64,000 bases of DNA, taken from the NCBI GenBank assembly GCA_005239635.1, contig SBBQ01000041.1, positions 1 through 64,000 of the forward strand. Reading direction: 5' to 3'. The notes beneath the pieces are model-generated. The model was not told the DNA's origin. It ran no database searches and saw only the letters and a list, made by a program, of their open reading frames with translations. Below are positions 8,542 to 13,608 of the stretch, piece by piece (the stretch's first letter is position 1; every line of letters begins with the position of its first letter). This stretch comes from Uliginosibacterium gangwonense. Lineage in GTDB: Bacteria; Pseudomonadota; Gammaproteobacteria; Burkholderiales; Rhodocyclaceae. The translations under genes and the position numbers were made by a program.

Positions 8542-8778
8542 TTAACCTTTGTTTTTTTCCAATTCGGCGACGCGGGCTTCAAGCTCGCTGAGTTTGGCGC
8601 GCGTGCGTGCCAGCACTTCGGCTTGCACATCAAATTCTTCGCGCGTCACCAAGTCCATTCGGCTAAACATGCTCGTCATCATGGCGCGTGCGTTCTTTTC
8701 AATATCTTTCGCCGGGCTATTGGCAATCATTTCTGAAAACTTGCCGGCAATCTCGTCAAACATTTTTGGGTTCAGCAT
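8542..8778 (-). CDS. ubiK: Ubiquinone biosynthesis accessory factor UbiK
   Basis: A 78-residue BMFP-type protein starting MLNPKMFDEIAGKFSEMI, preceded by a good ribosome site (AGGAGAAACACC). The N-terminal half is an amphipathic membrane-contacting region. The C-terminal half is a coiled coil (LARTRAKLSELEARVAELEKNKG) that trimerises in relatives. UbiK supports the UbiJ-UbiK lipid-binding complex needed for efficient aerobic ubiquinone synthesis. The frame is open to a GTG 15 codons upstream, but the ATG with its ribosome site is preferred. Nothing recognisable fills the 226 bases between lysR and this gene. Confidence 0.9.
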   Translation of the reverse strand: MLNPKMFDEIAGKFSEMIANSPAKDIEKNARAMMTSMFSRMDLVTREEFDVQAEVLARTRAKLSELEARVAELEKNKG

Positions 8779-8852
8779 GGTGTTTCTCCTGATATGCGGG
8801 GAGTCTAGCACGTCATACCGCACGGGCTGACCCGTTTAACTCAGTCATAAGT

Positions 8853-8869
8853 TGCACATATTTGGTGCG
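8853..8869. promoter_or_regulatory. NtrC-like binding site 1
   Basis: TGCACATATTTGGTGCG contains GCAC-N7-GTGC, the core of the NtrC consensus TGCAC-N7-GTGCA. It lies about 150 bases upstream of the sigma-54 promoter of the porin-glnK-amtB unit, a normal distance for an NtrC enhancer. Confidence 0.7.
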
Positions 8870-8883
8870 CATCTGTTAGTCGT

Positions 8884-8900
8884 TGCAACGCGATGGTGCG
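8884..8900. promoter_or_regulatory. NtrC-like binding site 2
   Basis: TGCAACGCGATGGTGCG is a one-mismatch copy of the same dyad (GCAA-N7-GTGC), centred 31 bases from site 1, or three helical turns. Paired sites on one DNA face fit cooperative NtrC binding. Confidence 0.6.
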
Positions 8901-9015
8901 CCTAGCTTTTGGGTTAACCATGAGGGTTCAGAAAAATGGGGGCAAAAACGATGCAAAACCGCCAGAAATCAGTGGTACCGTGCGTTTTGCAGCCTATTTC
9001 AATGCGGTTACAGAT

Positions 9016-9031
9016 TGGCATGGATCCTGCA
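9016..9031 (+). promoter_or_regulatory. Sigma-54 (-24/-12) promoter for the TorF porin, glnK and amtB
   Basis: TGGCATGGATCCTGCA has GG (9017-9018) and GC (9029-9030) separated by exactly ten bases, as in the sigma-54 consensus TGGCAC-N5-TTGCA. The predicted start is near 9043, leaving a short leader before the porin ATG at 9089. Together with the two NtrC-like dyads upstream this indicates activation under nitrogen limitation. Confidence 0.75.
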
Positions 9032-9088
9032 AGAGAGGCTGCGTGGTTTGTTTTAATAATTTAGTTTCAACAACTCAGGAGTATCAAA

Positions 9089-9904
9089 ATGCGTAAAACC
9101 CTGCTTGCAACCGCCATCGCTGGCGTGATTTCAACCTTCGCATTGCCAATGGCGGCACAAGCCGAAGAAGCAGCCAGCCCGCACACCTTCACCGGCAACT
9201 TCACCCTTGCGTCCGAATACCTGTACCGTGGTATCGCCCAAACGCGTGGCAAGCCGGCCATTCAAGGTGGTTTTGATTACTCCCATTCAAGCGGTTTCTA
9301 TATCGGTACCTGGGCGTCCAATATTACGTGGATTAGCGATGCAAACACTGGTGCTAGCGCTGGTATCGAAATTGACGTGTACGGCGGTTACAAAGGCGCT
9401 ATCAACAGCGACTGGGGCTACGACGTTGGTGTGCTGACCTATAACTACCCGGGCACTGGCAAGCCGAGCGGTGCCGCCAAGCCTGATACAACAGAGGTGT
9501 ATGCAGCGCTGAGCTATAAATGGCTGACCCTGAAGTACTCTCACTCAACCACTTCTTTGTTTGGTTTTGTTAAGACCCCGGGTACGGGCACGGAAAAAAC
9601 AAAGGGTAGTGGTTATCTCGAGCTGAACGCTACTTATGATTTGGGTAACGGCTGGGGTGTAACAGGCCATGCAGGCCATCAAAAGGTTAAAGGTTACAGC
9701 GATGCTTCTTACAGCGATTACAAGGTTGGTGTAACCAAGGATGTCGGCTTCGGTGTAGTGGGTTTGGCAGTGTCAGGAACCAACGCAAAGGATAGTTGTG
9801 GCGGTGTAGTGGGTACGACAGCTGACTCAACCAACCCCTACTGCTTGGTGATGAATACCTCCCCGGCAATACCTACGCTGGTGGCAAAACCCGCGCAGTG
9901 CTGA
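9089..9904 (+). CDS. TorF family putative porin, C-terminus apparently frameshifted
   Basis: An outer-membrane beta-barrel of the TIGR02001 type, found next to glnK-amtB in many betaproteobacteria and presumed to admit ammonium or other nitrogen compounds. The signal peptide MRKTLLATAIAGVISTFALPMAAQA is followed by the family start FTGNFTLASEYLYRGIAQTRGKPAIQGGFDY. The frame as read ends at 9904 in NTSPAIPTLVAKPAQC, which is not a barrel end. One base earlier in phase, the sequence reads GDEYLPGNTYAGG then KTRAVLTFGKTF and stops at 9924, a perfect barrel-closing strand with terminal Phe. The shift falls between 9824 and 9847, probably in the C run at 9835-9838. The intact gene would be 9089-9924. 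Confidence 0.85.
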   Translation: MRKTLLATAIAGVISTFALPMAAQAEEAASPHTFTGNFTLASEYLYRGIAQTRGKPAIQGGFDYSHSSGFYIGTWASNITWISDANTGASAGIEIDVYGGYKGAINSDWGYDVGVLTYNYPGTGKPSGAAKPDTTEVYAALSYKWLTLKYSHSTTSLFGFVKTPGTGTEKTKGSGYLELNATYDLGNGWGVTGHAGHQKVKGYSDASYSDYKVGVTKDVGFGVVGLAVSGTNAKDSCGGVVGTTADSTNPYCLVMNTSPAIPTLVAKPAQC

Positions 9905-9935
9905 CGTTTGGCAAAACGTTCTAAGAGTCTCGTGA

Positions 9936-9957
9936 GGGCGGGTGTAAACACCCGCCC
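9936..9957. other. Strong hairpin between the porin gene and glnK
   Basis: GGGCGGGTGT (9936-9945) and ACACCCGCCC (9948-9957) form a ten-base perfect inverted repeat with almost no loop. No T-run follows, so it is not a standard terminator. It is more likely an mRNA stabiliser or processing element that sets the ratio of porin to GlnK-AmtB, or a partial attenuator. Confidence 0.6.
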
Positions 9958-9964
9958 AGTATGA

Positions 9965-10321
<357 letters not shown>

Positions 10322-10333
10322 GGAGCACACGAC

Positions 10334-11875
10334 ATGAAAAAAACAATTGCACTGATCGCCTCCGTGTTGGCGCTCAGCTTGAGCGGCGCAAGCTTTGCTC
10401 AAGAAAAACCGGCTGATGCAGCCCCGGCGGCAGCGACGGTTGCTGCGCCGGCTGTTGAAGCACCTGCCACCGCCGAAGCCCCCGTTGTTGCAGCACCGGC
10501 TGAAGCTGCGCCTGCAGCACCCGCCGAAGCAGCCCCTGCTGCTGCGCCTACGCCAAACAAGGGGGATACCGCATGGATGATCGTGGCAACTGCCTTCGTG
10601 ATTCTGATGACGATTCCGGGCTTGGCACTGTTCTACGGCGGCTTGGTTCGTTCAAAGAACATGCTGTCTGTGCTGATGCAGGTTTTCACCATCTTCGCGC
10701 TCATCGTCGTGTTGTGGACCATCTACGGTTACAGCTTGGCCTTTACCGCGGGCAATGAGTTCATTGGTGGTCTGGATCGTTTGTTTCTCAAGGGCGTCTT
10801 CAACCCGGCGGATGGTGCTTTTGCCAATGCAGCAACCTTCTCTAAGGGCGTGGTGATTCCTGAGTTCATCTACTTCGCCTTCCAAGCAACCTTTGCTGCG
10901 ATTACCGTAGGCCTGATCGTAGGTGCCTTCGCTGAGCGTGTGAAGTTCTCTGCTGTGCTGCTGTTCGCAGTGCTGTGGTTCACCTTCAGCTACCTGCCGA
11001 TCGCACACATGGTGTGGTTCTGGGCCGGCCCGGATGCTTACACCGACGCTAAAGCGGCTGAAGTGGCTAATGCAACCGCAGGTTGGTTGTTCCAGAAGGG
11101 CGCGCTCGACTTCGCAGGCGGTACCGTGGTTCACATCAACGCCGGTGTTGCTGGCTTGGTGGGTGCCTATGTAATGGGCAAGCGTGTTGGGTACGGTAAA
11201 GAAGCCATGGCACCCCACTCACTGGTGATGACCATGATCGGTGCCTCGCTGCTGTGGGTGGGCTGGTTCGGTTTCAACGCAGGTTCTGCGCTCGAAGCTG
11301 GCGGCACTGCAACCCTCGCATTTGCCAATACTTTGATCGCAACGGCTGCTGCTACGATGTCTTGGCTGCTGGCTGAGTGGATGTTCAAGGGCAAGCCCTC
11401 TATGTTGGGTGGCGCATCTGGTGCAGTTGCAGGTCTGGTTGCCATTACCCCGGCGTGTGGTTTCGTCGGCCCGATGGGTGGTTTGGTAATCGGTCTGCTG
11501 GCTGGTGTTGTGTGTCTGTGGGGCGTTAATGGCCTCAAGAAGATGCTCGGCGCAGACGACGCGCTGGACGTGTTCGGTGTGCATGGCGTGGGCGGTATTT
11601 TGGGCGCGCTGCTAACCGGCGTGTTTGCCTCCCCGTCACTGGGTGGTACCGGCGTGTATGACTACGTTGCGAACAAAGTTGCAGACGGTTACGACATTGG
11701 TACACAAGTCATGACGCAAGCAACTGCAGTTGGCACCACCATTCTGTGGTCAGGCATCGTCGCCTTCATCGCCTACAAGCTGGTTGATATCTTCATCGGC
11801 TTGCGTGTGGCAGAAGACGAAGAACGCGAAGGTCTGGACATCGCTTCTCACGGCGAGTCTGCCTACCACCACTAA
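10334..11875 (+). CDS. amtB: Ammonium transporter AmtB with long Ala/Pro-rich N-terminal linker
   Basis: A 513-residue ammonium channel of the inner membrane. A signal peptide (1-22, ending ASFA) is followed by a low-complexity segment rich in Ala, Pro and Glu (about 23-75), then eleven helices starting at DTAWMIVATAFVILMTIPGLALFYGG. Pore signatures include HMVWFW, VHINAGVAGLVGAYVMG and the DALDVFGVHGVGG loop. The C-terminal tail ends GESAYHH. It lies 12 bases after glnK, the standard pairing. An intrinsic terminator follows. Confidence 0.96.
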   Translation: MKKTIALIASVLALSLSGASFAQEKPADAAPAAATVAAPAVEAPATAEAPVVAAPAEAAPAAPAEAAPAAAPTPNKGDTAWMIVATAFVILMTIPGLALFYGGLVRSKNMLSVLMQVFTIFALIVVLWTIYGYSLAFTAGNEFIGGLDRLFLKGVFNPADGAFANAATFSKGVVIPEFIYFAFQATFAAITVGLIVGAFAERVKFSAVLLFAVLWFTFSYLPIAHMVWFWAGPDAYTDAKAAEVANATAGWLFQKGALDFAGGTVVHINAGVAGLVGAYVMGKRVGYGKEAMAPHSLVMTMIGASLLWVGWFGFNAGSALEAGGTATLAFANTLIATAAATMSWLLAEWMFKGKPSMLGGASGAVAGLVAITPACGFVGPMGGLVIGLLAGVVCLWGVNGLKKMLGADDALDVFGVHGVGGILGALLTGVFASPSLGGTGVYDYVANKVADGYDIGTQVMTQATAVGTTILWSGIVAFIAYKLVDIFIGLRVAEDEEREGLDIASHGESAYHH

Positions 11876-11913
11876 GCAGAAGTTGTATCACTCCGAGTAG
11901 TTGAAATCTTTGC

Positions 11914-11940
11914 AGGGCGCCTTAGGGCGCCCTCTTTTTT
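11914..11940 (+). terminator. Intrinsic terminator of the glnK-amtB operon
   Basis: AGGGCGCC (11914-11921), loop TTAG, GGCGCCCT (11926-11933), then CTTTTTT. It lies 38 bases after the amtB stop. Confidence 0.9.
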
Positions 11941-12142
11941 GCCCAAGGGATCTTCGCATCTGGTGGGAGGTTGAGTTGATGTTTGCTGGTGCTAATGGTC
12001 GCTATTAATTTGCCCGTTAAGGCATCGCGCCCCTAACTTGCAGCTCAATTTTGCGGTAAAGATTTTGGCTGTAATGCCGCTTAATTGCTCATAGCCCTTG
12101 TTAGTAAAGCACCCAGCACCCAGCACCCAGGAAGGAATGCCA

Positions 12143-12533: not shown

Positions 12534-13421
12534 TTAACGAAACACCACAGTCTTGTTGCCGTGGCGTAGCACCCGATCTTCAATGTGGTAGCGCACACCG
12601 CGCGCCAACACCGCCTTCTCAATATCCTTGCCGTATCGCACCATGTCGTCCACCGAATCTGAGTGGTCGATACGAATCACGTCTTGTTCAATGATGGGGC
12701 CTTCATCCAGCGCTTCTGTTACATAGTGGCAGGTTGCGCCAATGAGTTTGACGCCGCGCAACCAAGCCTGATGGTAAGGCCGTGCGCCCACAAAACTGGG
12801 CAAGAACGAGTGGTGAATGTTGATAATACGGCCCGGAAAGGACGCGCATAAATCGGGCGAGAGAATTTGCATGTAGCGCGCCAGCACCATCAAATCGCCA
12901 CGTGCTGATTCGAACAACGACTTCATGTGTGCAAACGCGGCTACCTTGTTGTCGGGCGTGACCGGCACATGATGAAACGGAATGCCGTGCCACTCAACAA
13001 AGCCGCGAAAATCTTCGTGGTTTGAAATCACGCACGGAATATCAACCTGCAACTCGCCGCATTTCCAACGCGCCAGCAAGTCGTACAAACAATGCTCTTG
13101 TTTGGAAACCAGTACCACCATGCGCTTTTTAACGGCGGAGTCGGCAATGGTCCAATCCATTTCAAATTCGCGCGCAATCACGCTGAACGCTTCGCACAAA
13201 CGGTCCAAACCAAACGGCAGCGAATCCGCTTTAATTTCCACCCGCATAAAGTAGCGGCCCAATGCTGGGCTGTTTGCATCGTCTTGCTCTGGCGGTTCGG
13301 CATGAAACGCCGTCTCCAGAATCCAGCCTTTGTGTTCGGCAATAAAGCCCGATACACGGGCCACAATCCCCACGCGGTCAGGGCACGAAGCAGTTAAGGT
13401 GTAGCGACGATCTGGATGCAT
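12534..13421 (-). CDS. purU: Formyltetrahydrofolate deformylase
   Basis: Hydrolyses 10-formyl-tetrahydrofolate to formate and tetrahydrofolate, balancing one-carbon pools. The 295-residue protein starts MHPDRRYTLTASCPDRVGIVARVSGF, an N-terminal ACT domain (about 1-85). The formyltransferase-type catalytic domain follows, with NHEDF, the catalytic region INIHHSFLPSFVGARPYHQA and GATCHYVTEALDEGPIIEQ. The frame is open 35 codons upstream, but that part is compositionally odd and outside the family, so the ATG at 13421 is preferred. Between this gene and the small membrane protein gene lie 172 bases with no visible feature except an ATTGGCAA copy at 12397. Confidence 0.94.
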   Translation of the reverse strand: MHPDRRYTLTASCPDRVGIVARVSGFIAEHKGWILETAFHAEPPEQDDANSPALGRYFMRVEIKADSLPFGLDRLCEAFSVIAREFEMDWTIADSAVKKRMVVLVSKQEHCLYDLLARWKCGELQVDIPCVISNHEDFRGFVEWHGIPFHHVPVTPDNKVAAFAHMKSLFESARGDLMVLARYMQILSPDLCASFPGRIINIHHSFLPSFVGARPYHQAWLRGVKLIGATCHYVTEALDEGPIIEQDVIRIDHSDSVDDMVRYGKDIEKAVLARGVRYHIEDRVLRHGNKTVVFR

Positions 13422-13608
13422 GGCAAAAATTTTCGCAGGTGAGAACGAGGTGAAAGCAAAGTGAAGGCGAGATGCAAACGCGAGATGCAAACATCGTGGC
13501 GTGGGTGTAACCGCGGCCTTTGCCAATCACCTTGGTATTGTAGGGCTTTTAAGGAGCGAGACGAAGACTGTCATGTATAGCCAGCTCGTTCCGCTGGTTA
13601 TCACCACA

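Follow-up and report, generated by a model that had tools for sequence, protein, structure and literature searches.

The locus raises the question of whether a gene for a TorF-family porin, which precedes glnK and amtB in the genome of Uliginosibacterium gangwonense, is controlled by nitrogen supply together with the ammonium system. In the window, by which we mean the whole 64,000-nucleotide stretch analysed, the initial annotation had claimed a GCAC-N7-GTGC dyad at 8854-8868, a one-mismatch copy 31 bases on and a sigma-54 site with GG-N10-GC at 9016-9031, in this order before torF, glnK and amtB, and had predicted from them that the porin is nitrogen-regulated. We recovered the first dyad at exactly these coordinates, its copy at 8885-8899, and the sigma-54 site with its GG at 9017-9018 and its GC at 9029-9030, and profile searches bore out the order of the genes (Table 1). 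From the sequence comparisons set out here, we consider it very probable that 8854-9031 is the NtrC/sigma-54 control region of a torF-glnK-amtB transcription unit that is switched on under nitrogen shortage.

Table 1. Coordinates of the genes and predicted control elements around torF in the window
Feature	Position	Strand	Remarks
Divergent gene, ubiK/BMFP	8542..8787	-	BMFP above the Pfam cut-off; UbiK model below the NCBIfam cut-off
NtrC-like dyad 1	8854..8868	.	GCACATATTTGGTGC, exact; start 162 bp upstream of the -24 element
NtrC-like dyad 2	8885..8899	.	GCAACGCGATGGTGC, 1 mismatch, TGGTGC half intact; 31 bp after dyad 1
Sigma-54 -24/-12 promoter	9016..9031	+	TGGCATGGATCCTGCA, GG 9017-9018, GC 9029-9030
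Predicted transcription start	9041..9043	+	About 12 bases past the -12 GC, from sigma-54 promoter geometry
torF / Gcw_chp (TIGR02001), as read	9089..9904	+	Homologous C-terminal end in another frame, stop 9922-9924
G+C-rich inverted repeat, torF-glnK gap	9936..9957	+	Without T tail; whole gap z -4.5
glnK (P-II nitrogen regulator)	9983..10321	+	Profile search
amtB (ammonium transporter)	10334..11875	+	Profile search
Terminator-like hairpin after amtB	11914..11940	+	Ends in CTTTTTT; the transcription unit probably stops here

Consensus sequences were applied for sigma-54, NtrC and IHF sites. The -24/-12 element before torF is an exact one, and TGGCATGGATCCTGCA is the sole exact match to TGGCAYG-N5-TGCW in the 64 kb. 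Transcription at sigma-54 promoters starts about 12 bases beyond the -12 GC. Upstream, within enhancer range though at unusual distances, lie the exact dyad (162 bp) and the one-mismatch dyad (131 bp). The exact dyad, GCACATATTTGGTGC, occurs once in the window, and dyads with up to one mismatch are common there, at 47 against 71 expected, so that they show no enrichment and GCAACGCGATGGTGC taken alone is at chance level. Exact dyads are likewise not enriched in the whole genome, with 64 places against 84 for a reversed control pattern, and because neither count is enriched, dyad 2 is meaningful only through its position and conservation. Between the dyads and the promoter (8869-9016), no IHF-like site with fewer than three mismatches was identified. 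Sigma-70 promoter-like sites in 8780-12050 number three against 2.1 expected, and the lone plus-strand one lies inside glnK.

We investigated the distribution of this layout in relatives in two sets of genomes. Set 1 covered 61 genomes, including the window's own; TorF was found in 53 of them, at 66 places (69 rows, three of which are second pieces), comprising 46 loci with glnK close downstream, the window's own counted, and 20 unlinked loci. Within 400 bp upstream we accepted TGGCAYR-N5-TGCW with at most one mismatch, the GG and GC being kept, and dyads with at most one mismatch. Sigma-54 sites were identified at 44 of the 46 linked loci (36 exact), against 1.19 in dinucleotide shuffles, and dyads at 44 (37 exact), against 10.32 in the shuffles (0.57 exact). 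Set 2, the best 80 loci from a scan of named species genomes, includes Sulfuritalea, Zoogloea, Dechloromonas, Parazoarcus, Cupriavidus, Pandoraea, Herminiimonas and Noviherbaspirillum, and contains 69 glnK-linked loci, with a sigma-54 site at 68 (59 exact) and a dyad at 65 (49 exact). The shuffle control was run on the set 1 loci. The sets overlap in part, as identical promoter strings in L047/L119, L052/L143, L056/L152 and L064/L171, among others, indicate.

The initial annotation had proposed checking conservation upstream of torF orthologues, and the outcome was positive and specific to torF genes linked to glnK. Both elements were present at 43 of the 46 linked loci of set 1 (shuffles 0.37) but at only 4 of the 20 unlinked ones (shuffles 0.04), one of which has only 20 bases upstream; in set 2, the best 80 loci, which partly overlap set 1, the figures were 64/69 and 2/11. 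The linked exceptions in set 1 are L074, without a sigma-54 site, L086, without a dyad, and L100, at a contig end; in set 2 they are L113, without a sigma-54 site, and L118, L162, L175 and L180, without a dyad. Thus, glnK-linked torF genes share a conserved putative promoter, composed of a sigma-54 site and a dyad, in most relatives examined. That the matches arose by chance, as the abundance of one-mismatch dyads in the window might suggest, has next to no probability in our view, and for the orthologues as a set this origin is ruled out because conservation lies far above the shuffles and above the unlinked torF genes. In a tree built from 66 TorF rows, the glnK-linked genes cluster without forming one clade (11 changes; bootstrap not settled). 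Three unlinked torF genes that keep both sites (L068, L078 and L081) have an ammonium-transporter-like gene, recognised by eye, directly upstream; in L068, the single case so tested, the transporter is of a marine subtype by profile.

Dyad positions follow a pattern in which the window is a variant. At the 112 linked loci with a sigma-54 site, among the matches listed, a dyad stands at 107-112 bp in 73 and at 76-82 bp in 36, and the commonest spacings between paired dyads, again among listed matches, are 31 bp (25 pairs) and 13 bp (24 pairs). The window's dyads, at 162 and 131 bp, place it among the 34 of 112 listed loci that fit neither distance. Relative to a 10.5-bp repeat, they nevertheless fall at phases 4.5 (162) and 5.0 (131), compared with 4.7 overall and 5.6 off-peak, and exact dyads away from the two preferred distances also cluster on that repeat (R 0.47, n 52, matches listed); we attach no p value to this figure, since loci from related genomes do not count as independent observations. 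Most simply, the window copy would differ from the usual layout by about 53 bp, or five helical turns, of extra spacing, with the face of the enhancer kept. In three Pandoraea loci (L155, L159 and L160), the sigma-54 site is preceded by paired exact dyads at 272-291 bp, well past the usual distance.

The genome itself (2.45 Mb in 81 contigs) encodes both regulators, rpoN scoring 460.8 bits (cut-off 277.35) and ntrC 708.3 bits (cut-off 558.6). The exact sigma-54 pattern has 14 matches, against three for a reversed control, and 13 of them are distinct because contig C53 mirrors itself. An exact dyad lies at most 250 bp upstream at three of the 13 sites, those of glnA, torF and a nitrate-ABC-like uptake gene, for which chance would give about 0.08 (from 64 dyads per 2.45 Mb). 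One-mismatch dyads stand before a nirB-like gene, a nasT-like gene and a site (L001) that resembles coding sequence, and none was found within this distance at a flgB-like gene or at the remaining six of the 13 sites; the names of the nitrate-ABC-like, nirB-like, nasT-like and flgB-like genes were read by eye from the sequences. Before glnA, an exact sigma-54 site is accompanied by an exact dyad at 109 bp and one-mismatch dyads at 122 and 78 bp, and the dyads at 109 and 78 are 31 bp apart, matching the spacing before torF. Thus, as judged from these motifs, the putative glnA promoter of the same genome shares the layout of that of torF. Contig C53 (46,490 bp) appears to consist of one sequence and its inverted copy, because ntrC, the glnA promoter and other matches recur at mirrored positions, and is most likely an assembly artefact.

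A real sigma-54 promoter might still be driven by an enhancer-binding protein other than NtrC. The NtrC profile has nine distinct long matches in the genome (ten rows, one pair lying on the duplicated contig C53), with NtrC itself alone above the cut-off, and a second observation in favour of such an activator comes from small methylotroph genomes. Of the 60 genomes in a family search, we selected eight measuring 1.3-1.4 Mb. Each carries a RuMP-pathway gene over the cut-off, and in each the gene matched by the TorF query is directly followed by glnK and amt. In each of the seven scanned an exact sigma-54 site is present and the usual dyads are missing; the dyads found have one mismatch and lie 220-239 bp further upstream, an argument against the strict conservation of putative NtrC sites in those genomes. 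Against a different activator, the torF dyads look like the ones before glnA in this genome, dyads recur at preferred distances and with the 31-bp spacing in the listed relatives, the neighbours of torF are nitrogen genes, and the corresponding Herbaspirillum operon is described as NtrC-dependent (PMC3023670). We therefore regard another activator as very improbable, and NtrC as the probable regulator.

A second alternative concerns the divergent gene, in that the dyads might serve ubiK, alone or along with torF. Such a gene is widespread at this position, with a ubiK/BMFP-like match upstream in 103 of the 115 listed linked loci, and the dyads of the window are closer to ubiK (start 8787, 67 bp from dyad 1) than to torF. 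However, opposite-strand sigma-54 sites with at most one mismatch occur within 400 bp upstream in only 2 of 114 listed linked loci, and the dyads are concentrated at set distances from the torF promoter. We give a role of the dyads at ubiK a very small chance, and assign them to torF.

The P-II gene and the ammonium transporter gene lie side by side on one strand with torF, and the extent of the transcript depends on what separates them. Between torF and glnK, the window has a strong G+C-rich hairpin, and similar ones recur in relatives: an uninterrupted stem of at least seven pairs was identified in 26 of 40 folded gaps of set 1, against 6.9 from shuffles, and in 28 of 47 gaps of set 2 (best 80 loci), against 7.7. 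The whole-gap z was at or below -1.5 in 27/40 gaps of set 1 (26/40 with other shuffles) and 29/47 of set 2 (best 80 loci); gaps of under 30 bases (6 of 46 loci, and 20 of 69 in the best-80 set) and two that were not delimited were left out of the folding. This hairpin could largely uncouple glnK and amtB, leaving torF alone nitrogen-regulated from the 9016-9031 site, and L092, which has a hairpin and a T-rich stretch after torF, and an exact sigma-54 site of its own before glnK, would be consistent with such an arrangement. However, the window hairpin is without a T tail, and tails follow the hairpin in only 3 of 40 gaps of set 1 and 2 of 47 of set 2 (best 80 loci). From -60 to +250 bases of the torF end, a further sigma-54 site with at most one mismatch was found in L092 and in none of the other 113 of 114 listed linked loci; moreover, the corresponding genes of Herbaspirillum are presented as one operon, in which an amtB fusion responds to nitrogen (PMC3023670). 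Uncoupling by the hairpin is in our judgement improbable, and we favour a single transcription unit, in which the hairpin may instead be an element of mRNA processing or stability that lets torF be made in excess.

In L092, the gap between torF and glnK is about 228 bp, as though the operon had been split. The hairpin after amtB, at 11914-11933 with a T tail following, is one of three terminator-like sites in the region, against 4.7 expected, and thus not above chance in number. A convergent purU follows amtB in the window (12534-13526), as in 13 of the 69 linked loci of set 2 (best 80), over the stretches covered.

We propose that, under nitrogen shortage, phosphorylated NtrC would bind the dyads at 8854-8868 and 8885-8899, oligomerise, and loop to a sigma-54 RNA polymerase held at 9016-9031, and that transcription would begin near 9042. 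The transcript would run through torF, glnK and amtB to the terminator near 11914-11940. With the three genes on one transcript, a TorF-family protein, presumed to form an outer-membrane pore, would therefore be co-produced with the sensor and the transporter of ammonium. The prediction that the porin is regulated by nitrogen with the ammonium system is accordingly supported, through promoter conservation at the linked loci, the presence of rpoN and ntrC in the genome, and the precedent described for Herbaspirillum (PMC3023670).

We additionally considered the TorF protein. The window gene scores 201.3 bits against TIGR02001 (cut-off 47.15), placing it within the family, although its frame is broken near the 3' end (9840-9924) in the assembly, with an in-frame stop at 9902-9904 and the ending ...AKPAQC. 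As assembled, it lacks the phenylalanine-ended last strand expected of a working outer-membrane beta-barrel; linked TorF proteins as called end in F in 41 of 46 cases in set 1 (window included) and 63 of 69 in the best-80 set, often as ...KTF. The break is either a real frameshift or an assembly error, and the fault may be the assembly's, because the expected C-terminal end is present in another frame. An AlphaFold model built from 30 aligned sequences, with the query cut before the frame break, has 11 beta strands (mean pLDDT 85.7, pTM 0.79), which fits a predicted 12-strand barrel minus its last strand; Gcw_chp families are given 12 strands (PMC4827864). A fold search of this model, with the last strand absent, against the PDB gave weak matches to the porins OccD2, OmpG and KdgM (TM 0.40-0.52 by query length). 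Residues that might distinguish glnK-linked TorF proteins were sought by comparing 49 proteins (linked ones and four unlinked with the promoter, L100 dropped) with 15 unlinked ones (L094 dropped), and this idea was set aside: the core is largely common, with Y44, R47, Q59 and E136 in all, D63, D96 and E94 also in 73-87% of the unlinked proteins, and similar mean net charges (-4.5 for the linked group and -4.1 for the unlinked).

The window gene thus belongs to the TorF/Gcw_chp family (TIGR02001, PF09694), but its context here is nitrogen. The family is presumably named after Shewanella torF. The Shewanella gene is tabled as an outer-membrane porin of the TMAO-reductase system (PMC5955497), and TorF also occurs in a Methylophilus nanoparticle shell (PMC13303613). 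In most of the relatives examined, a well-kept nitrogen-starvation promoter would link this outer-membrane family to the genes that sense and carry ammonium, and this gives a direct, testable hint at the role of the TorF porin.

For the promoter, the enterobacterial glnA and glnK-amtB operons provide a known layout, in which two NtrC dyads, some three helical turns from each other, precede a -24/-12 element. The paired dyads of the window, like those before glnA in its own genome, resemble them. We know of no porin gene in the lead of the enterobacterial glnK-amtB operon. Other systems share parts of the arrangement. In Azoarcus, glnK-amtB is co-transcribed, with 7- and 9-fold induction (PMC8467165), and in Pseudomonas aeruginosa, amtB and glnK are NtrBC-dependent, with no TorF in the excerpt at hand (PMC7214821). 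In Paraburkholderia phymatum, by contrast, the reported RpoN site immediately precedes the P-II gene itself, in an excerpt that does not mention a first gene (PMC5979394), and this counts against our reading; NtrC-dependent porins are described in Burkholderia cenocepacia, in passages that draw no tie to glnK (PMC5491218); and Dechloromonas GlnK/Amt is presented, in the portion of text available, without a neighbour gene (PMC2907700).

A closer parallel in gene setting is found in the OM43 methylotroph NB0046, in which NB46_00251-00250-00249 comprise a hypothetical gene, a P-II gene and an ammonium transporter gene in a putative operon (PMC5120137). The transcript of the hypothetical gene rose about 1,900-fold under nitrogen depletion, the greatest change in that study, and the first gene gave 17,897 transcripts per 1,000 cells, P-II 3,093 and the transporter 4,952 (PMC5120137). 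We liken NB46_00251 to the window's torF by its published description and its position only. One might suppose that the GlnK-AmtB system of betaproteobacteria has TorF/NlmA as a regular third component, an outer-membrane channel that would admit ammonium, or some other nitrogen compound in short supply, during nitrogen starvation. Its excess over GlnK and AmtB would then come from protection or trimming of the message by the hairpin that follows torF. The transcript excess in OM43 (PMC5120137) and the recurrence of the hairpin fit this proposal. Parts of it are weakened by the absence of a strong hairpin after the TorF-query gene in four of the seven small methylotroph genomes, and by the conserved charged and aromatic residues, which are largely common with unlinked TorF. 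We hold it to be a tentative and rather doubtful possibility.

Finally, the closest known system is the nlmA(orf1)-glnK-amtB operon of Herbaspirillum seropedicae, which has the same gene order as the window's torF-glnK-amtB. It is NtrC-dependent, its three genes are described as an operon and apparently co-transcribed, and an amtB fusion was 21 times higher under nitrogen limitation (PMC3023670). The published Hsero_0083-glnK-amtB genes, at about 98 kb, are separated by gaps of 12 and 15 nt and measure 789, 339 and 1533 nt, respectively (PMC6646362). Our family search of 145 genomes, with TorF in 128, contained a genus (g87) of seven listed genomes, each read at one TorF place, in which the gap between the first gene and glnK is 12 nt, glnK is 339 nt long in all seven, and the first gene is 780-798 nt long. 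The amtB gene, recovered in two of the seven, follows after 15 nt and is 1536 nt long, and in one genome, G086, whose chromosome measures 5.47 Mb, the operon is located at about 96 kb. From these features we infer that the genus is Herbaspirillum. The first gene of G086, the one scanned from this genus, scores 161 bits for TIGR02001, and all seven genomes have an exact sigma-54 site with one exact dyad at 116 bp, in place of the window's dyads at 162 and 131 bp.

NlmA is thus likely, from its family score and gene setting, to be a member of the TorF family. The publication takes it as most probably periplasmic (PMC3023670), whereas the TorF family model is that of an outer-membrane protein, and this suggests that NlmA, despite that description, is an outer-membrane barrel. 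In the literature, among the matches listed and the portions of text they provide, the TorF family is nowhere named as heading a glnK-amtB operon. Nitrogen regulation of nlmA/torF-glnK-amtB is already known in kind from Herbaspirillum; what the present comparison adds is the breadth of its conservation, the likely identity of NlmA as a TorF-family protein, the spacing variant in the window, and the hairpin that follows torF.
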